A stretch of DNA of 64,000 bases from a virus. This document shows, one piece after another, positions 11,423 through 61,364 of the stretch. Below the pieces are notes generated by a model. The model saw only the letters and a program-made list of their open reading frames with translations, was not told the DNA's origin and searched no databases. How positions within the stretch are numbered: the first letter of the stretch is position 1; each line of letters opens with the position of its first letter. Location: positions 34,134 through 98,133 of the IMG/VR virus record IMGVR_UViG_3300044695_006284; one strand, 5' to 3'. The translations under genes and the position numbers were made by a program.

Positions 11423-11450
11423 GGCCCCCAATTAATTTTGGGGGCTTTTC
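11423..11450 (+). terminator. Intrinsic terminator after capsid gene
   Basis: An 8-bp stem gcccccaa / ttgggggc (11424-11431 with 11438-11445), a six-base loop and a TTTT run. It ends capsid transcription before the next promoter. Confidence 0.9.
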
Positions 11451-11465
11451 ATTTTAATTTTATAG

Positions 11466-11474
11466 TGCTATAAT
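11466..11474 (+). promoter_or_regulatory. Extended -10 promoter TGC-TATAAT
   Basis: TGC-TATAAT follows directly after the capsid terminator; a Shine-Dalgarno (aaaggag) precedes the ATG at 11502. The -35 region falls in the terminator T-run and is weak, so recognition likely relies on the extended -10. Confidence 0.6.
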
Positions 11475-11501
11475 TTATGTACATACCAAAGGAGTATATA
11501 T

Positions 11502-15517: not shown

Positions 15518-15546
15518 TTGTACCCTTATAATGGTTATGCTATAAT
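15518..15546 (+). promoter_or_regulatory. Promoter TTGTAC-17-TATAAT with TGC extension
   Basis: TTGTAC at 15518, a 17-base spacer ending in TGC, and TATAAT at 15541. It begins immediately after the terminator and would drive the chaperone and tape-measure genes. Confidence 0.7.
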
Positions 15547-15574
15547 AATTTAGACGATCCTTAAGGAGGATAAA

Positions 15575-15907
15575 TTGGCAACAACAGTATATGATGTAGA
15601 AGAGATTGAACTACAAAGCGGAGCTAAAGTAAAGCTCAAGCCACTATCAATCAAGCAGCTACGAAAGTTTATGGAAGTAATTAAGAAAGTTCAAGATGCA
15701 GAAGATGAAACAGCAACACTTGGAATTTTGGTTGAAGCATGCGGAGTAGCACTAGAAACACAGCTTCCAGACCTAGTTGCTGATCTTGACAAGCTAGAAG
15801 ACGCATTGGATGTTCCAACAATTAATAGAATCCTTGAAGTTTGCGGAGGAATTAAGATGGACGACCCAAACCTAATAGCGGCAGCGGTACTGGCTGGTCA
15901 GAACTAG
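15575..15907 (+). CDS. Tail assembly chaperone G (short form)
   Basis: A 110-residue product starting at TTG after a strong AAGGAGG. It has the compact helical fold of gpG-like chaperones: a start VYDVEEIELQSGAKVKLKPL, SIKQLRKFMEVIKKV, and a C-terminal helix ending LIAAAVLAGQN before TAG. G proteins bind the tape measure during tail assembly. The key evidence is the slippery C CCA AAC near its 3' end, from which a -1 shift continues into the downstream open frame to make a G-T fusion of about 222 residues. The order before the tape measure is invariant in siphoviruses. Confidence 0.85.
   Translation: MATTVYDVEEIELQSGAKVKLKPLSIKQLRKFMEVIKKVQDAEDETATLGILVEACGVALETQLPDLVADLDKLEDALDVPTINRILEVCGGIKMDDPNLIAAAVLAGQN
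15865..15871 (+). promoter_or_regulatory. Programmed -1 frameshift slippery site CCCAAAC
   Basis: In the G frame it reads C CCA AAC, the X XXY YYZ form, so both tRNAs can re-pair one base back. It lies 36 bases before the G stop, and the -1 frame is open from 15856 to 16242, so shifted ribosomes enter the T region. Confidence 0.85.
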
Positions 15908-16242: not shown

Positions 16243-19200
16243 TGGCTGACGAACAAATTGTAACCAGTATAGTCGCCAAAGCCGACTTATCTAGCCTTGT
16301 GTCTGAAGTACACAGGGCTAGTTCTAGTCTCCAACAATTACAAAGAGAACTTCTTGCATCGAATAGAGCAATATCTGCTTCAACAAAATTAGCAAATAAC
16401 TTATTTAGAGATACACTAACTGGAAGCGGACAGTTTTCTAGTCACTTTGTAAACCTTAATTCGGATGTAGATAAGTTTGGTAAAAACCTAGACTCTGGAA
16501 GATTAAAGCTTAAGAACTATTTCCAGACATTTAGAGAGCATGCTACAACTCAAAAGGGAATGATAAGGGAGCTTGCCAAAGAGCAGGTAATGCTTCAAAA
16601 CTCAGTGCTACAACCTTTAGGTAGAAATGCTCAAGGCCTAATGCAGTACAACGTTATGATTCCAAGAGGTTTGGATGCCGTAAAAAATAGCGCACAACTA
16701 GCTCGCATGGAACTTCAGATAATGAATCGTGCACTATCTGAAGGAGCAGGATCTTTAATTAACTGGGGTAAAAATACTCAGTGGGCAGGTCGTCAGCTTA
16801 CAGTTGGACTTACAGTTCCATTAACAATGTTTGGTGCTGCAGCAGGAAAAGCATTTAGAGAAGCAGATCAAGAGCTTGTAAGACTTACAAAGGTTTACGG
16901 TGGACTAGCTGCAACTTCTGCAGCAGACTTAAAAGCAATTAGAGAAGAAGTTGTGCAAACAGCAAAATCTTTATCTCAAACAATGGGAGCTTCTTTTAAA
17001 GATACAATTGCGCTAGGTGCTGATATTGCGGCAACTGGAAAGATGGGCAACGAACTTTTAGGTTCTATAGAAGAAACAACCAGACTTGCAATCCTTGGAG
17101 AAGTAGATAGACAAGATGCAATGAAAGCTACTCTTTCAATTCAAACAGCTTTTAAGCAAAACACACAGCAACTTACAGAATCAATTAACTTTCTTAACGC
17201 AGTTGAAAACCAGACATCTACAACACTTAACGATTTAGTAGAAGCAATTCCAAAAGCTGGTCCAGTTATACAGCAACTCGGAGGCAGCATAGAAGACTTA
17301 GCTCTTTATATGACTGCAATGAGAGAAGGTGGAATTAATGCATCTGAAGGTGCAAACGCATTAAAGTCAGGTCTAGCTTCTTTAATTAATCCAACAAAAC
17401 AAACAGTCGGTATAATGTCAGATTTTGGCATAGATGTAATGGGAATGGTTGCAAAAAATACTGGTGATACAACTGGAATGTTGCTAGATTTGCAAAAAGC
17501 TTTAAACACTTTAGATCCTCTAAGTAAAGCTAGAGCACTTGAGCAAATGTTTGGTAAGTTCCAGTTTGCAAGAATGAGCGCACTCCTAAACAACCTTGGA
17601 AAAGAAGGAAGCCAGACGCTTCAGGTTATGGATTTAATGAAGGCAAGTACCTCAGATTTGGCGGGAATTGCAGAGCGAGAATTAGGAATGATTACAGAGT
17701 CTGCATCTGGTAAGTATAGAAGAGCTATGGAGTCTTTAAAAGCACAGCTTGCAGATGTAGGAGATGAGTTTCTTGGGGTTGCAACTAAACTTATAAATGC
17801 TGCGTCAAAGATTTTAGAATTCTTCACTAATTTGCCATCACCGATTAAAAAAGCTCTTACTTTTATGGCAGGATTTACAGCATTAGTTGGCCCACTAATT
17901 ATGTTAACTGGTGTACTTGCCAACTTCTTTGGTTATATAACAAAGGGAATAGTCCAGCTCAGATCTTTCTTTATGAAAGCAAATGGATGGAAGATGCTTA
18001 CTCCAGAAATTATTGCTGCTCAAAAAGCAGCAGAAATGGTTGAGAATGCATTTTATTCAGATGCCGCTGCAGCTCAAGTTCTTCATAATGCATTACAAAA
18101 ACTTGTTTTAGATTATCAAAACCTTCAAGCAGCATCAATGAAGAACGCAGTTCCAGTAAACGCAGGAGTCTCTACAGTTGCTGGAAATACAATTGTTGCT
18201 CCTGCTCATGGAAGAAGAGTTGTAGATCCTGATGATCCATACGTTGGAGATCCTAATACTAGAGCAATGTCTCACATTAGACCGAGAGATCCAAATAATC
18301 CAGCCACCTTGTTTGGTGGTGTGCCAGGAGCTATACCAGTAAACAGGGGAATATCTAGAACTCCTCAAATTTATATGCATGATAGACTTCCAAATGTTGA
18401 AGGCCTAACAAGTGTAAAGGGAATATCTACAGGAATTGTTGCACCAGAGGCCGCTAAGTTTCATGCGCTCATGGCCACACTTGGAATGCAAACAGAACAG
18501 GAAATTGCAGCACTAAAGAAAACTATTGCAATGGGTGGAACAGTAAGTAGAGAGCTTTTAGATACATTCGACGACATTCTTCCAATAACTCAAAGATTTG
18601 CAGATAGCGCAGCAACTCAATCTGCACTAATTGTTCAGCAAATGAGAAATGCAGAAATAACTGTTGATCAGGCAAAGGCAAGAATACTTGCGCTTAATGC
18701 ACAAATAGAAGCAGACATGGGATCAGCAGTAAGTATGTATGCTGCTGGACGAGGAAGAACAATTGATTTAACAAGAGCTCCAATGATGGATCAACCAGTT
18801 GTTGATGCTAATGGACAGTTTACACTTAGAGATTTGTATAAGAAAAAGACAAATGCTGCCGTCATGGAAGAGTTTGGAAGAGTCCGTGGTGTAAGAACAT
18901 TTGGCGCACCTTACAGTATTCAAACAACAAGAATGCCTAAATTTAATATAGGTGGAGAGGTTGAATCATTTGGTCCAAACAAAACAGTGGTTTCAGGACC
19001 ATCTTCAGTAAACTATGATGATAGATTGGGAAGTGTTCCACTAGGTGGATATGTTTTGAACCAGCAAGCTGCAATGGATCCAGCAAATGCCCCATTAGTT
19101 GCAATGGCTCCAAGCACATATTTAAATGACGGTGGAAATATTACAGCAGCTCTTACTCCACGGGAAGTAGTTTTTGGTCCTCAAATTCAAAGAATGCCTG

Positions 19201-22200
19201 AGCTATATGCAGCAGTAGATGCTGCAAATAGTGGATATAGTTTTGGCGGGCAGATCATGAGGGGCACATATGGATATGGAAGAGACAGCGTTCTATCAAT
19301 ATGGGCAAAACTAGTTAACTCTAAAGATTATCCAACTGTAATTAAAGCAGCAACAGTTGCTTCTGATGCTGCCATATTATCACAGCTTACTGGCATGGAT
19401 ATTAAAGATGCCACAAAAAGAGTTTCTTCAGATTATGATGAAGCAATAGAGTATGCTAAAAAAGCAGCAAATCAAAATGGAACAAGGAAAACAGACGAGT
19501 TTGTAAAAGCAAGAACAGCTCAGCTTATTAGATTAAGCAAAGAGTTTCCAGGTGCAAATTTAATTTTAGATGAATATTCAAGTAAAAATAAGTACAATCA
19601 AAAGGCAAAAGCATCTCGTATGAAAGCTATATCTCCTGAGACATACGCAGGAACAATGAAAGCTGTAATTAATGATTTAATAAAAGATGGAGTTTTAACT
19701 CAACGCCAAGCAAATAAAGTTTTTGGAATTTTAGGAGACGCAACAGATTTTTACGATCCAATTTCTAAATCTCACACTATAACTGCAAAAAGAACTGCTT
19801 CAATATTTAATGCAGGGGAACTTCAGGACCTACTTGTTGAAGGAGGAATGTCAAAAGCCGAAGCAGCAAAATTTGCCGATGTTACTGGGGTTAGATCAAA
19901 TAATTTTGTTGGTCAATCTACTGGGCTTGCAAAATCATTTAACTCGATGGGCAACTGGTTACAGCGACGTACAGATGGTACTTTTATAGATGAAGTTTCA
20001 CCATTTCAAGACGAAGCAAAGAGCAATTTTATATCAGGAATTAAAAAACTTAAAGATAAGTTGGGAATTAAAGGACCCGCAACAATGGAGGAAATTATTA
20101 GACAGCTGACCCTGCAGAGAATAAAATCTGCATCGGGATTTAACTCTAAAATGATTACAACAGTTGCTGGAAGGTTGCGCCACATCTCGTTTGCAAAACC
20201 AGCACTAGGCCCGCTTGCTGGATCATTTAATAAAGGCGGTATGATTCCAGGCGGATCTATATCTAGAGGTAGATCAAATTATGGAAATATTGCTCCTGCC
20301 TTAAGATTGCTTGCACCAGATAAACAATTAAAGATTTTAGCAAAGGCAAGAGAATTAAGCTCAAGAGGATCGCTAGGTAAATTTGCTGATATGCCAGTAA
20401 CTGAATATGGGCATCAAATTTCTGCAAGCACAGGAATGAGTTATCCAGTACCTGGTGTATCTGGATTGTATAAGGTCGGTAACAAAAAAGTTTTTGTTAA
20501 AGGTGTTCCTAATGAATTAACTGCCGTCCATGAGCCAATTGGCACTCAAATTACAAGAGATCTTTTTGGAATACATTCTCCAGTACAAACAGCTAGAACA
20601 GTTGCAAATCCAGTAGATCCATCAAAAAAAACCAAGCTCCTTGCTTTAGAATCAGATTATGATCCAAGATTTGCAAACACTAATGTGCCATGGGATGAAG
20701 ATACAATTCTTAGACAGCTTGCTAATTCTCTTCTTTTAAACAACAAAGATTTATCTAGAGCAAACGTGTATGGTAATTTTAATCCAGATGTCGGACAAGC
20801 TGGAGTATTACCTAAAGCATCTGGTAATACACGTCTGGCAACAGCTGATGAAATGAACTCTATGGAAAAGCAAGCACTGATTAATCTACTTGCCGTTAAA
20901 GGTGGAGCAAGAAAAGATTTTGCACGTGACACTGCCCCAATAATTGCTAAGATGAGCCCGAAAAAATATGGTCGACGAATGAAGAAAATATTAGAAGATG
21001 CTCGTCCAAAGTTAGTAAAAATAATAAATGGTTTACCTGAAGATCTTAGACCTCCTTATCAAGCAATGCTTAAAAGATTGGATGATGGTATAGAGGTTGA
21101 TTGGAGTCAATATCATGCCGTGCATGCTAATCCAAAGTATCTTAATGCTGGAGGACCAGTTGGTGGCGGTCCAATCAGACGAGGAAGATATGCTTACGGT
21201 CCTAAAAAAGATGGATCACGCAGACCAGGTAACCCAGCAAAAGCAGCTGCTTGGGATGCAAAGCAACGTGAGCAAAGAGAAAGAGACTTGGCTGCAGAAA
21301 GATCTAGAGCGGCATCTCATCAGATTCAAGGTCAGCAAGCACTTACAACAGGACTTGGCAGAGAGGCAGCAAGAACTGGAACAACAAGTTTTTACAATCC
21401 AGGCTCATTAATATTTCCTCAAATTGGGGCTCAGATAAGAGCATCGTTATCTTATATGTCAAATTCAGTTATAAAAGGATCTGTTCGATTAAATCTTGAG
21501 TTATTAGCGGCAGCTAATAAAACTGCAAATGTTTATAATAGAGCGTCATCTATTGTAACAACTTTTGCAAATAAAGCGCAAGCTTCTATATCATCAATAG
21601 CAAACAGCGTAACAAACTTTGGAGCAAGTAAAATAAATGCAATTGTTAGAGCACAAAATGCATTTGCTGCTAATAATTATCCAGTAGGACAAGCACCAGC
21701 ACAAGGATTCTTTGGTCCAGGAATGATTGGAAGGTATAAAGACCTTGGAGATGGAATACAGTCTAGAAAAGTTGGTGTATTAGGAGCAAGAAGAACAGAA
21801 TATCTAGTTGATGGTGTAACCATGAGTGCTAAGCAGGCACGACAAGCTGGAGTATCTATACCTCAAAGAGCAAACGGAATGAGCGTAGGTGCTCAAATGG
21901 GAATTGGTATGGCTGGATCAATGGGTGGAATGGCATTGATGGGCAAAGAAAAAGTAAATATTTTCGGTAAAGAAACTTCTGGAATGAATGCTGGAATGAT
22001 GTTAATGGGAGCAACTTCCATACTTCCAATGCTTCCATACGTTAAAGCACTTACAGCACTTAAATCTGGAGCATCTTCGGCTAAAGCTGCTATTATGGGA
22101 GTTACTGGTGCAGGGGCAAAGGCAGCACAAGTTGTTGCACAGATAGCAAGATTTGCAAAAGCATTTAGCCTTGTAGGAGTAGTTGCAACAGCAGCATTTG

Positions 22201-38163: not shown

Positions 38164-38391
38164 ATGACACTTACAATAGAAGAAAAAATAAGAGTAGTAG
38201 AGGATAAAATTCTTGAAGCAGAAAGGGTTATAAGGTATACACGCAACCCTTCAGAAGAAGATATTGATGCCCAAATATTAAATGGAATTAGAGAGCAAAT
38301 AATTGAGCAGGTTATAAGACAAACTCAGGCAATTGAGCTGTTTAATAGTATCCTAAATGATCTAAAAAATGGTATTGACCAAATAGGCTAA
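38164..38391 (+). CDS. Small helical protein
   Basis: A 75-residue helical protein (TIEEKIRVVEDKILEAERVIRY, then ILNGIREQIIEQVIRQTQAIEL). Heptad spacing of Ile/Leu suggests a coiled coil. It begins 8 bases after the fibre gene with AGGAG upstream and is the first of three small coiled-coil genes; such genes after tail fibres can be fibre chaperones or tip components. No family is recognised. Confidence 0.65.
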   Translation: MTLTIEEKIRVVEDKILEAERVIRYTRNPSEEDIDAQILNGIREQIIEQVIRQTQAIELFNSILNDLKNGIDQIG

Positions 38392-38402
38392 TATGCTATA
38401 AT
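38375..38402 (+). promoter_or_regulatory. Promoter TTGACC-16-TATAAT with TGC extension
   Basis: TTGACC at 38375-38380, a 16-base spacer ending in TGC, and TATAAT at 38397-38402. It sits over the end of the 38164 gene and precedes an AAAGGAGG site and the ATG at 38420. Confidence 0.7.
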
Positions 38403-38419: not shown

Positions 38420-38644
38420 ATGACAACAAATTTAACAAATGAAGAAAAGTCTGCAATTGTAAATCAACATATTAAAAATATTGAGTATTCAATTTACAAC
38501 CTAGAGATTTCAGTTATTGAAGAAGAGGCTGTTTCAAATCCAGACTCTGCAAAGATTTCTAATCTTAATTCTGATATTACAGAGTTGAATGCAAAAAAGG
38601 CGGCTCTTACAGCAGAGCTTGCATTACTTACAGTATCGGAATAA
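38420..38644 (+). CDS. Small coiled-coil protein
   Basis: A 74-residue acidic, helical protein: NEEKSAIVNQHIKNIEYSIY, LEISVIEEEAVSNPDSAKIS and a C-terminal helix LNAKKAALTAELALLTVSE. It has a very strong Shine-Dalgarno (AAAGGAGG) and its own promoter, so it may be highly expressed. Its N-terminus and that of the 38164 protein share an xxEEKxxIV pattern, pointing to distant paralogues. A helical-bundle virion or chaperone role is possible; none is shown. Confidence 0.65.
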   Translation: MTTNLTNEEKSAIVNQHIKNIEYSIYNLEISVIEEEAVSNPDSAKISNLNSDITELNAKKAALTAELALLTVSE

Positions 38645-39251: not shown

Positions 39252-39279
39252 TTGACAATCTAAAGTAATATGTTACAAT
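39252..39279 (+). promoter_or_regulatory. Junction promoter TTGACA-16-TACAAT
   Basis: A perfect -35 (39252-39257) and TACAAT -10 (39274-39279) with a 16-base spacer at the border between late structural and replication genes. It probably starts early transcription. Confidence 0.75.
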
Positions 39280-39289
39280 TAATGTAACA
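39271..39289 (+). promoter_or_regulatory. Palindromic operator candidate over the junction promoter
   Basis: TGTTAC and GTAACA arms separated by 7 bases overlap the -10 box and the expected start site. A dimeric repressor could block the promoter here. Confidence 0.5.
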
Positions 39290-39291
39290 TC

Positions 39292-39316
39292 AAAGTCACG
39301 TACCCGTGACTTTTTT
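39292..39316 (+). terminator. Intrinsic terminator immediately downstream of the junction promoter
   Basis: A perfect 9-bp stem aaagtcacg / cgtgacttt with a four-base loop (tacc) and TTTTTT at 39311-39316. It lies about 6 bases after the predicted start of the junction promoter, so it would either stop late read-through or attenuate early transcripts. Confidence 0.85.
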
Positions 39317-39333: not shown

Positions 39334-40134
39334 ATGAGCAACGATTTAAAGTGGATGATTTCATCCGACCAGCAGTTCCCATATCAGGATGATAAGATGA
39401 TCGCACTTTGGTTTAAGGTTATGAAGTGGTTCAAGCCAGATGTCGTTGACTACCTTGGCGACACAGATGATCAAGCTTGTTATAGCAAGTATACTGAAGG
39501 CAAATCAGCAGAGTTTTTAAACTATCATAAAAATGATAGCAAAGATCTTATTGTTCCAATGATGAGACATGAAGCAAAAGGCGCAAGAGATTTTTATGCA
39601 AAGACAAGAGAGATGCTCCCAGATGCTCAGCTTTTTTCAGCACTAGGAAATCACGATATTAGAATCTTTAATTATGTAGATGCTAAGTTGCCAGAGTACA
39701 TTTCTGAAGTAACTCCAGAATCAATGTGGAGCTTAGACTCATTAGGCTATGAGTATATTTATTATAACGAACTGCCAAAGCGCCGTTTTGGAGACATCCA
39801 CGTTCACCATGGACTTTCAATTGCTTCAACTGGTTCAGTAAGAAAAGATATGGAAGATTTACAGATATCTCTTATGAGAGGACACTCGCACAGAATAGCG
39901 TCTCACCTAGTTACTTATGAATTAAGAAACGGTGGGCAAGGAGAAACTCTTCGTGGTTATGAGCTTGGTCACATGTGTGATGAAAAATCAGACGGAATGA
40001 AGTATATGCAGCACCACGATTGGCAAAAAGGCTTTGCCATTGCACATATTGTAAACGACTACCCACATATTCAAATGATCCATGTGGCACCAGATTACTC
40101 ATGTGTTGTTGATGGGAAGCTATTTACGTTATGA
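39334..40134 (+). CDS. Metallophosphoesterase (calcineurin-like)
   Basis: A 266-residue phosphoesterase with the family motifs in order: SSDQQFP near residue 10 (in place of the usual DxH), YLGDTDD near 40, ALGNHD near 109, HVHHG near 157 and RGHSHR near 182. Two metal ions would be held by these. The enzyme could act on nucleic acid ends or on phosphoproteins and nucleotides; being the first early gene next to helicase and primase favours a DNA role. The first motif lacks the common His, which may change metal use. It overlaps the next gene by ATGA. Confidence 0.82.
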   Translation: MSNDLKWMISSDQQFPYQDDKMIALWFKVMKWFKPDVVDYLGDTDDQACYSKYTEGKSAEFLNYHKNDSKDLIVPMMRHEAKGARDFYAKTREMLPDAQLFSALGNHDIRIFNYVDAKLPEYISEVTPESMWSLDSLGYEYIYYNELPKRRFGDIHVHHGLSIASTGSVRKDMEDLQISLMRGHSHRIASHLVTYELRNGGQGETLRGYELGHMCDEKSDGMKYMQHHDWQKGFAIAHIVNDYPHIQMIHVAPDYSCVVDGKLFTL

Positions 40135-40319
40135 TGAAATGCAATAAATGCCAAGGAAGAGTTTTTGTAGATAGAGTATTTTCACAAAAATTACACGTAG
40201 AGCTTTTCTGCATGATGTGCGGTAAAAGATGGATGATTAATAAGGATACGAGTGCACTAGGTAAATGGATAGAAAAAAGAGAAAACAGCCAGCTAAAAGC
40301 ATTCGGTATTTCTTCTTAA
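40131..40319 (+). CDS. Small zinc-ribbon protein
   Basis: A 62-residue protein with CNKCQGRVFVDR and a second pair in LFCMMCGKRWMI, a classic CxxC...CxxC zinc ribbon. The C-terminal 20 residues are a basic tail that overlaps the start of the next gene by 55 bases. Such ribbons bind DNA, RNA or RNA polymerase; the target is unknown. Confidence 0.7.
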   Translation: MMKCNKCQGRVFVDRVFSQKLHVELFCMMCGKRWMINKDTSALGKWIEKRENSQLKAFGISS

Positions 40320-40747
40320 ATAATAAAATACATAAAGTATTAAGTCATTCAAGATCTAAAGACCAAATGGTTGCATGGTGCTATCCAGATAAAAAGAGAT
40401 TGCTATATTCTTATTCACAAGTTTTAAAAACTATGGAGAATGCATACTCAACTACGCAGGTAGCTCAGATGCTTGGCAAGCACAAGGTTACTATAGAAGA
40501 TTATATTTTGGACGGGAAAATAAGATACCCTCAAAAAGTATATCCTATAGGTAATCCAGATAGCACATGGTATAAGTTTATGTATAGCGAATCGGACATT
40601 ATGGACATTCATGAGTTTATATTAGAATCAGGATACTCTAATAATATGCCTTCAAAAAATGAGATGAAAGCTCTTCTCAAACACAACACTATATTGTATA
40701 CTAAGACCACTGAAGGAAAATTTGTACCAGTATGGAAAGCAGAATAA
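40265..40747 (+). CDS. HTH (MerR/excisionase-like) DNA-binding protein
   Basis: A 160-residue protein. The basic N-terminus and HKVLSHSRSKDQMVAWCYPD form a beta segment; residues about 60-100 (AYSTTQVAQMLGKHKVTIEDYILDGKI) match the winged HTH of MerR/Xis-type proteins. The overlap of 55 bases with the ribbon gene is long, but the coherent N-terminus supports this ATG over one at 40367. It may regulate early genes or help origin recognition. Confidence 0.65.
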   Translation: MDRKKRKQPAKSIRYFFLNNKIHKVLSHSRSKDQMVAWCYPDKKRLLYSYSQVLKTMENAYSTTQVAQMLGKHKVTIEDYILDGKIRYPQKVYPIGNPDSTWYKFMYSESDIMDIHEFILESGYSNNMPSKNEMKALLKHNTILYTKTTEGKFVPVWKAE

Positions 40748-57038: not shown

Positions 57039-57274
57039 GTATATATCAAGAAAAAGCTAAAGAATGTAAATGTTGCAGTAAGCATGTTCCTCTTCCAACT
57101 AGGTTGAAGGACTATAACGGAACACTAGTTTGCCCTACGACCTTTGACAACATCCATGAATACAAAAGGGTATGGTCTGATATTGGAAAGAGGCCCCCAG
57201 GAAGCATAAGGAAGCATTTTTCAGAGTATGTACAGAAAATAGTAGAAGACTCTATTGACAAAGTTGTAAGCTAA
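57035..57274 (+). CDS. Small zinc-binding protein
   Basis: A 79-residue protein with ECKCCSKHVPLPTRL and a later LVCPTTFDNIHEYKRVW, giving a CxxC and a third Cys plus His. It may bind zinc. It is coupled by ATGA to the terminase and the last gene before the tRNA promoter. No family is recognised. Confidence 0.6.
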   Translation: MSIYQEKAKECKCCSKHVPLPTRLKDYNGTLVCPTTFDNIHEYKRVWSDIGKRPPGSIRKHFSEYVQKIVEDSIDKVVS

Positions 57275-57284
57275 ATACTATAAT
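57255..57284 (+). promoter_or_regulatory. Consensus promoter TTGACA-18-TATAAT for tRNA-Met
   Basis: Both hexamers are perfect, and the predicted start lies at about 57291, right before the tRNA. This is the best match to consensus in the window. Confidence 0.85.
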
Positions 57285-57292
57285 ACAACTAG

Positions 57293-57366
57293 GCAACAAT
57301 AGCTTAGTTGGTTAAAGCCCCGAACTCATAATTCGGTAATCGTAGGTTCAAGTCCTACTTGTTGCA
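57293..57366 (+). tRNA. tRNA-Met (CAT)
   Basis: A 74-base cloverleaf. Acceptor gcaacaa/ttgttgc, D stem gctt/aagc, anticodon stem ccgaa/ttcgg with loop ctCATaa, T stem gtagg/cctac with loop ttcaagt. The CCA is not encoded. The CAT anticodon could also be an isoleucine tRNA that needs lysidine; elongator Met is the simpler reading. Confidence 0.88.
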
Positions 57367-59897: not shown

Positions 59898-59943
59898 AAG
59901 AAAAATAAAAAAAATGATCAAGAAGAGAAGATATACCTACTGA
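59866..59943 (+). CDS. Very basic 25-residue ORF (possible)
   Basis: ATG at 59866, TGA at 59941-59943; the A of the TGA is the A of the next ATG. Half of its residues are Lys or Arg (MIKIIKKIIVKRKIK, then KMIKKRRYTY). It overlaps the SGNH gene and may only be the A+G-rich ribosome-binding region, or a translational coupling peptide. Confidence 0.3.
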   Translation: MIKIIKKIIVKRKIKKMIKKRRYTY

Positions 59944-61364
59944 TGATTATATTAGGAATTAATGAAACTTCACATGACGCATCCGTTTCATTAATAAAAA
60001 ATGGCGACATACTATTTGCCGCACACGCAGAAAGATACAGCAAGAATAAAAATGATTGGTATAACAATAGCGAAATAATTTTAGATGCTTTAAACTACGG
60101 AACTCCAGATGCAATTGCATACTACGAAAAGCCATTGCTTAAAAAATCCAGGATGATTCTTCATGGAGGGGCAAGCGACTGGAAGCCAAAATTTCCCATA
60201 GATGTTCCAGTACACTATTTTAAGCACCACTACTCTCATGCAGCAGCAGGATACTATACAAGTTCGTTTAACGATGCTTGTATTGTAGTGCTTGACGCAA
60301 TTGGTGAATTTAATACCTCAACAATATGGGTCGGAGAAGGAGAGAGAATCAATCTTAAGTATAAGCAAAACTACCCAGTAAGTTTTGGATTATTTTACTC
60401 TGCATTTACACAGCTAATTGGTCTTATGCCAAATCAAGAAGAGTATATCATGATGGGGATGGCAGCCTATGGAGATTGGAAAAGATACTATAAGGAAGTA
60501 GATGAGTATTTCCCACAATATGATCAACAAAAGTATAATTTTCACAAAGGAATTAATGACTGGGGTATGGCTATTACAGATCAAGATCGTTTTGATATCG
60601 CAGCAGCAGTTCAAATGGTATACGAGCAAAGATTAAATGATTTTATGCGTATGGCAAAAAGACTAACTGGTAAAAATAATTTAGTTTTTATGGGAGGCTG
60701 TGCACTTAACTCATCCGCAAATACGATTTTGTGGAATATATTTAAAGATATATGGATTATGCCAAACCCAGGGGATGCTGGAAGCTCATTAGGGGCTGCG
60801 GCTGCACTTTATGGAAAGCATTTAAACTGGCAAGGACCTTACCTAGGTCACGATCTCGGAGGAAATTATCCAGTTGATAAAATTTTGAATAGCTTAATTG
60901 TTAATAAAGTTGCTGCAGTTGCAACAGGAAGATCTGAGTACGGTCCGAGGGCTTTGGGAAACAGGAGTATCCTAGCAGACCCCAGAGACCCAAACATTAA
61001 AGATATTGTAAACTCCATAAAGCAAAGAGAAAAATTTAGGCCGTTTGCACCAGTAGTTTTAGAAGAATATGCGTCCGAATGGTTTGATATGAAATACTCA
61101 TCTCCATATATGCAATTTACTCCAAAGTGCTTGAAGCCAGAACTAATACCATCTGTAGTTCATAAAGATGGAACATCTAGAGTCCAAACAGTGAATCAGG
61201 TTCAAAATCCAGGGCTTTATTTATTATTAAATAAGTGGTACGATTTGACTGGTATACCAGTATTGCTAAACACTAGCCTTAACATAAAGGGACAGCCCTT
61301 GCTAAATGATTTAAATGATATAAAAGAATGGCAAGAAAAATATAAATCTAGAATAATTTACTAG
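59943..61364 (+). CDS. NodU/CmcH-type carbamoyltransferase
   Basis: A 473-residue enzyme that transfers a carbamoyl group from carbamoyl phosphate, via carbamoyl-AMP, to a hydroxyl. The ASKHA-like N-terminus has GINETSHDASVSLI with H12 and AAHAERYSK, then HHYSHAAAGYY, EEYIMMGMAAYG and VFMGGCALNSS. The C-terminal YrdC-like/Carbam_trans_C signature is GRSEYGPRALGNRSIL (329-349 region), ADPRDPNIKD and FRPFAPVVL. It is about 100 residues shorter than bacterial members. Substrate may be a sugar, a small molecule or hydroxymethylated DNA. The start shares a base with the previous TGA. Confidence 0.9.
   Translation: MIILGINETSHDASVSLIKNGDILFAAHAERYSKNKNDWYNNSEIILDALNYGTPDAIAYYEKPLLKKSRMILHGGASDWKPKFPIDVPVHYFKHHYSHAAAGYYTSSFNDACIVVLDAIGEFNTSTIWVGEGERINLKYKQNYPVSFGLFYSAFTQLIGLMPNQEEYIMMGMAAYGDWKRYYKEVDEYFPQYDQQKYNFHKGINDWGMAITDQDRFDIAAAVQMVYEQRLNDFMRMAKRLTGKNNLVFMGGCALNSSANTILWNIFKDIWIMPNPGDAGSSLGAAAALYGKHLNWQGPYLGHDLGGNYPVDKILNSLIVNKVAAVATGRSEYGPRALGNRSILADPRDPNIKDIVNSIKQREKFRPFAPVVLEEYASEWFDMKYSSPYMQFTPKCLKPELIPSVVHKDGTSRVQTVNQVQNPGLYLLLNKWYDLTGIPVLLNTSLNIKGQPLLNDLNDIKEWQEKYKSRIIY

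Follow-up and report, generated by a model that had tools for sequence, protein, structure and literature searches.

Why does a transcription terminator appear to lie only a few nucleotides behind the promoter that faces the replication genes of a virus? We addressed this question in the window, a stretch of 64,000 nucleotides corresponding to bases 34134-98133 of a 98-kb virus contig. Nearly all of its long reading frames are on the + strand. The host is probably an actinobacterium, because cultured relatives of the virus infect Rhodococcus, Streptomyces, and other actinobacteria.

The junction and its elements

The last stop codon upstream (39245) and the start of a metallophosphoesterase gene (39334) are separated by a gap of 88 bp, which holds the promoter-hairpin module and a ribosome-binding site and nothing else (Table 1). 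Upstream of the module are large structural-region genes, whose counterpart in annotated relatives is called a minor tail protein. Downstream, the metallophosphoesterase gene heads the replication genes: it is followed by the gene for the helix-turn-helix (HTH) protein and by frames that read as a DnaB-type helicase, a primase, a PHP-type DNA polymerase III alpha, and a RecA-like protein. The polymerase assignment was backed by further comparison and the helicase assignment by synteny with annotated relatives. Elsewhere, we noted a carbamoyltransferase with both Pfam domains (window positions 59943-61364), perhaps for base modification or for the host surface. A gene for ribonucleotide reductase (PHROG 367) precedes the window's genes (contig G000, bases 17773-19707; L289, 774-2708).

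Table 1. Elements of the junction and the two genes behind it, in window coordinates (H, entropy)
Feature	Position	Strand	Remarks
-35 element TTGACA	39252..39257	+	Near-invariant, H 0-0.12 bits (120 distinct elements)
Unconserved part of the -35/-10 spacer	39258..39266	+	H 1.3-1.9 bits
Extended -10 TATGTTACAAT	39269..39279	+	TATG and TAnnnT nearly invariant
Palindrome P1, ATGTTACA-ATTAA-TGTAACAT	39270..39290	+	Over -10 and start site
Expected transcription start	39286	+	Inferred from the -10 position, 7 nt after the -10
-10-like TAACAT at -1 to +5	39285..39290	+	Possible sigma-dependent pause site, suggestive only
Hairpin P2, AAAGTCACG-TACC-CGTGACTTT	39292..39313	+	Compensatory changes; leader fold z -3.45
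T-run, six T, completing the intrinsic terminator	39311..39316	+	H 0-0.58 bits beside a variable loop
Metallophosphoesterase, PHROG 221, first gene after the module	39334..40134	+	17 nt past the T-run
Syntenic HTH protein, PHROG 9440	40265..40747	+	HTH_17 below cut-off; predicted fold MerR/BldC-like

The promoter, TTGACA-N16-TACAAT, spans 39252-39279 with a full spacer of 16 bp, and its -10 hexamer (39274-39279) is preceded by TG, which makes it an extended -10. The core of the palindrome, TGTTAC-N7-GTAACA (39271-39289), lies within a longer form, ATGTTACA-N5-TGTAACAT. Hairpin P2 has a 9-bp stem and a 4-nt loop, and its first base is at +7 from the expected start. In all of this the earlier note, which had described the promoter, the palindrome laid over it, and the hairpin with six T just past the start, was right to the base. 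The two hexamers, their spacing within 16-18 bp, and their constraint next to a free spacer are features of a sigma-70-type promoter; a G+C-containing stem, a short loop, and a T-run on the transcribed strand are features of an intrinsic (Rho-independent) terminator. An RNA that began at the expected start and stopped at this terminator would be about 31 nt long, with its end at about +31.

We then compared these elements with chance expectation. The promoter motif alone was unremarkable (4 found versus 1.8 expected), and the site at the junction shared the window's top promoter score; the exact palindrome had an expectation of 0 (100 shuffles). The leader folded at -13.2 kcal/mol, beating 199 of 200 shuffles. 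A generic terminator scan did not list P2, probably because it counted three of the six T as stem, and Rfam covariance models run against the window matched nothing except tRNAs.

Other promoter-like sites were seen in the window. A second strong extended -10 site, TTGACC-16-TATAAT, is located at 38375-38402, at the end of the ORF at 38164-38391 and 17 nt ahead of the start of the ORF at 38420, with AAAGGAGG between. TTGACA-18-TATAAT occurs at 57255-57284, just upstream of a tRNA-Met at 57293. Extended -10 sites of the form TGCTATAAT (11446-11500 and 15519-15575), with a weak -35 and good ribosome-binding sites, precede structural-region ORFs and may represent a second promoter class.

Conservation among relatives and the role of the hairpin

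Next, we looked at relatives, which were chosen by the phosphoesterase gene and not by the element. The gene had relatives on 519 viral contigs (558 with a wider query, in which similarity to Rhodococcus phage NiceHouse set the ranking, so that distant branches are included); the best 80 of each were examined, and these 160 loci and the window gave a set of 161. Within the 120 bp that precede the gene, 142 of the 161 loci had a promoter of this type, and at 134 loci it was accompanied by a stem of 6 bp or more. The full combination of promoter and hairpin with at least five T in 8 was present at 121 loci (80 of 94 distinct elements). Furthermore, in an independent retrieval, every exact copy of the hairpin read from viral contigs (119/119) was directly upstream of a phosphoesterase gene. 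In this respect, the earlier proposal of an element that would control the early (replication) genes and yield an RNA of about 30 nt unless read through is supported, and the element is conserved. Conservation is, at the level of sequence, the decisive evidence for the reality of the element.

The positions that vary are as informative as those that do not. We compared 120 distinct elements that share a 16-bp spacer, a set picked by promoter score and drawn in part from the hairpin retrieval. In these, the -35 element and the block TATGnTAnnnT hardly varied, in contrast to the spacer (Table 1). In the 73 distinct sequences that were collected by way of the gene, entropy was near zero at most positions of the stem core and the T-run was similarly constrained, whereas the loop had an entropy of 1.2-1.5 bits. 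Spacer and loop thus varied like four-fold degenerate codon sites, for which the mean was 1.26 bits (11 sites within codons 1-60 of the phosphoesterase gene). Compensatory changes were found in four of the nine stem pairs (96.7% of cells paired, 73 distinct sequences), and a consensus fold recovered the same P2 stem unaided. Of 132 distinct elements, 72 had a first predicted stem that began 7-8 nt past the expected start, and for many of the remainder the folding program drew weak outer pairs around the same hairpin. Read as selection, this pattern is that of a working promoter and a working hairpin with a T-run. The constraint on promoter, stem, and T-run next to a free spacer and loop, together with the covariation of the stem, points to selection of promoter and terminator as one module.

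The earlier note had also raised the possibility of a small regulatory RNA. A discrete short RNA is indeed predicted, and the stem sequence is conserved beyond the need of pairing alone, but the loop varies freely, and a potential seed is limited to a variable single-stranded stretch of 6-8 nt at the 5' end. A trans-acting role for the RNA of about 31 nt is extremely unlikely.

We favor the interpretation that the site is a promoter-proximal attenuator, with a default RNA of about 31 nt and read-through under the control of a factor, and assign it a probability of roughly 0.57. Host RNA polymerase of the sigma-70 type would start at about 39286 and would meet the intrinsic terminator after about 31 nt, so that most transcripts would stop as short RNA by default. 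The phosphoesterase gene and the genes behind it would be expressed from this promoter only by the read-through fraction, and a factor of the phage or the host that acts on the polymerase at or just after initiation presumably increases this fraction. The same terminator would also stop transcripts arriving from the upstream tail genes. The conserved pairing suggests that the replication genes are held back until the polymerase is let through, because more than 100 related viruses keep promoter and stop signal in the same place.

Alternatively, the hairpin could be a plain end-of-operon terminator for the tail genes, which the early promoter merely overlaps and which that promoter's own transcripts mostly escape. 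The hairpin does adjoin the last gene before the replication block, and it is the sole strong + strand hairpin with a T-run near the junction. However, in every module-bearing relative inspected, the promoter was upstream of the terminator, while a hairpin that served insulation only would be free to precede the early promoter and would still be required in promoter-less relatives. We scored 19 loci as promoter-less and scanned 14 of them for a terminator up to 2.5 kb upstream. One (L237) had a hairpin 0.5 kb away with a weak tail, another (L238) had a hairpin 2.5 kb away, and the other 12 had none. There is thus almost no terminator at the junction in these relatives, which indicates that the terminator travels with the promoter and not as the end of the tail genes; this co-occurrence is suggestive and is confounded by shared ancestry. 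We consider the end-of-operon explanation quite improbable.

The T-run is less uniform than the promoter and hairpin. One large group of relatives has a weaker tail, TTTTATAT, and distant loci (L221-L226 and L232-L236) have promoter and hairpin with no T-run. The Loccivirinae Streptomyces phages that we checked (Sham, TunaTartare, Comrade, Blueeyedbeauty, Annadreamy, Beuffert, and Gilson) have a TTGAC-type promoter with a 17-bp spacer in the same place before the phosphoesterase gene, with a weak -10 in Gilson. Their leader hairpin is strong (leader, -23 to -25 kcal/mol) and begins about 2-11 nt past the predicted start. Behind it is a run of four T in Sham, TunaTartare, and Comrade, and no T-run in Annadreamy, Blueeyedbeauty, and Beuffert. 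The module is absent at the phosphoesterase junction of Circinus, Wakanda, Ankus, and Faust and of the Rhodococcus phages examined.

Across the sequences compared, then, promoter and leader hairpin are more widespread than the T-run, and this keeps alive the main rival to attenuation, a 5'-terminal stem-loop like that of ompA that would protect the replication mRNA or set its translation, with no regulated termination. In its favor, the hairpin is at such a short distance from the predicted 5' end in freshwater as well as Streptomyces phages, and several lineages retain a strong hairpin without a T-run; those relatives fit a leader stem-loop equally well, which counts against attenuation. However, a stabilizer needs no T-run, and few positions in the window's clade vary less than this run, which stands next to a loop that varies freely. 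The rival is also tempered because actinophage phiC31 reportedly has terminators without poly-U tails, going by the title of a 1995 paper by Ingham that PMC8355165 cites. On balance, we judge a stabilizing stem-loop somewhat unlikely.

Two relatives (L001 and L003) have a phosphoesterase 100% identical (rounded) to that of the window, with mostly silent differences in the DNA, and their leader carries another hairpin class, AAGCCACG...CGTGGCTT. A search of bacterial genomes for the exact hairpin, as a link to the host, gave no match. In a search of the open-access literature, we found no published description of the module.

The start-site palindrome and candidate regulators

The exact palindrome has a single copy in the whole 98-kb contig. 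In relatives, P1 takes compensatory versions (TGTTAC/GTAACA, TGCTAC/GTAGCA, and ATGTTACAC/GTGTAACAT), with half-sites 7-10 bp apart and arms that are often longer at the greater distance. Its conservation, which the earlier note had singled out as a check, was divided: P1 is kept with compensatory changes in the commonest clades and is missing from others, and the core was lost in about half of 48 distinct versions, in which promoter and terminator were retained. In about half of the palindrome-less versions, a TAnnnT was located within 1-2 nt of -1 to +5, which is suggestive only.

A palindrome over the -10 and the start site, single and with symmetric covariation, invites the explanation of a repressor-operator switch, in which P1 would be an operator blocking the -10 and the hairpin would be secondary. 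This explanation is very doubtful. The spacing of the half-sites varies, P1 is lost in about half of the distinct sequences, and no HTH_3 (cI-like) repressor was found in the contig, which may be incomplete, whereas a cI-type switch has an operator of fixed geometry, usually in several copies, and a repressor gene. Sigma-70 region 2 likewise had no match in the contig, incomplete as it may be, and support is therefore lacking for a phage sigma factor as well as for a switch of the cI kind. Of the genetic switch suggested earlier, the promoter with its immediate terminator is supported as a control element, but an operator for a classical phage repressor is not supported. Spacing as variable as this would be unexpected for a rigid dimer operator and is closer to what a nucleic-acid hairpin would show.

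We also considered other roles around P1 and rejected them. Pairing of P1 at the RNA level was not favored, since G-U and A-C mismatches both occur (by eye); a transcript from this promoter would include the right P1 arm only. On the opposite strand, the mirror half of the palindrome had no -35 that would make it a promoter (by eye). The PHROG 9440 HTH protein is predicted to be MerR/BldC-like (mean pLDDT 83; weak Foldseek matches, best E 0.04). It was set aside as a reader of P1, as was an operator role for P1 with it, because the gene order is unchanged with and without the module and because two relatives (L043 and L059) have nearly identical HTH regions and different P1 sequences. Separately, an AT-hook-like stretch, GRPRKDG, occurs in the syntenic HTH protein of several module-lacking phages and of phages with the promoter and no T-run (L209, L213, L217, L239, and L260). 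It is not in the HTH protein of full-module phages such as that of the window, a distribution that may reflect ancestry only.

We propose that P1 provides an additional layer of control in most of the commonest clades, as a candidate protein site or pause-promoting element. In a more specific and rather unlikely version, a factor of these actinophages would load on the polymerase at the start-site palindrome during a pause on its -10-like arm and would carry the polymerase past the +7 terminator into the replication genes, which would be an antitermination switch of a new type. If so, the covariation of P1 at elastic spacing would be explained by a nucleic-acid hairpin or by a flexible protein with two sites, and not by a rigid operator. 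A search of the 98-kb contig, which may be incomplete, for the Phage_antitermQ and Antiterm families (PF06530 and PF03589), whose members diverge strongly, gave no match.

Significance and comparison with known systems

If attenuation is the correct interpretation, the module would be a widespread and compact element that times the switch-on of DNA replication genes in a large, mainly metagenomic phage group, and it would point to a read-through factor. The look-alike in the same place in the cultured Streptomyces phages Sham, Comrade, and TunaTartare makes this testable in laboratory hosts.

In the systems controlled by lambda Q or AlpA, a downstream terminator halts polymerase that has started at such a promoter, unless a factor has loaded on it near initiation (PMC7969949, PMC9371919). 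At the Pseudomonas PA0807 promoter, controlled by the antiterminator AlpA, the predicted terminator starts 26 bp past the start site (PMC7969949), a precedent for the close spacing here, and the AlpA-controlled promoter PalpB has a pause element, CACGAT, at -1 to +5 (PMC9371919). Like the Q-dependent late promoters (lambda, 21, and 82) and the AlpA promoters, the module has an intrinsic terminator between promoter and first gene. At the position of the PalpB element, -1 to +5, its -10-like TAACAT may act as a pause site. Although the anatomy is like that of a Q/AlpA locus, membership fails because the -35/-10 spacer has no conserved binding element, no Q family was found in the contig, and the nearby HTH protein is predicted to be MerR/BldC-like and not Q/AlpA-like. 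The module also precedes replication genes and not late or lysis genes.

The likeness to phiC31, which is drawn from a paper's title, concerns hairpin terminators in an actinophage early region and bears on those Streptomyces relatives that lack a T-run; the window's element differs in having one. Transcription attenuators and other promoter-proximal intrinsic terminators limit the expression of the genes behind them through a terminator in the leader. The module likewise has a leader terminator ahead of genes, but its leader of about 31 nt is too short for a leader peptide or an alternative antiterminator hairpin. Finally, 5' mRNA stabilizers of the ompA type have a hairpin within a few nucleotides of the 5' end. 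The window's hairpin is similarly close to the predicted 5' end, and it differs in the T-run that its clade has conserved.
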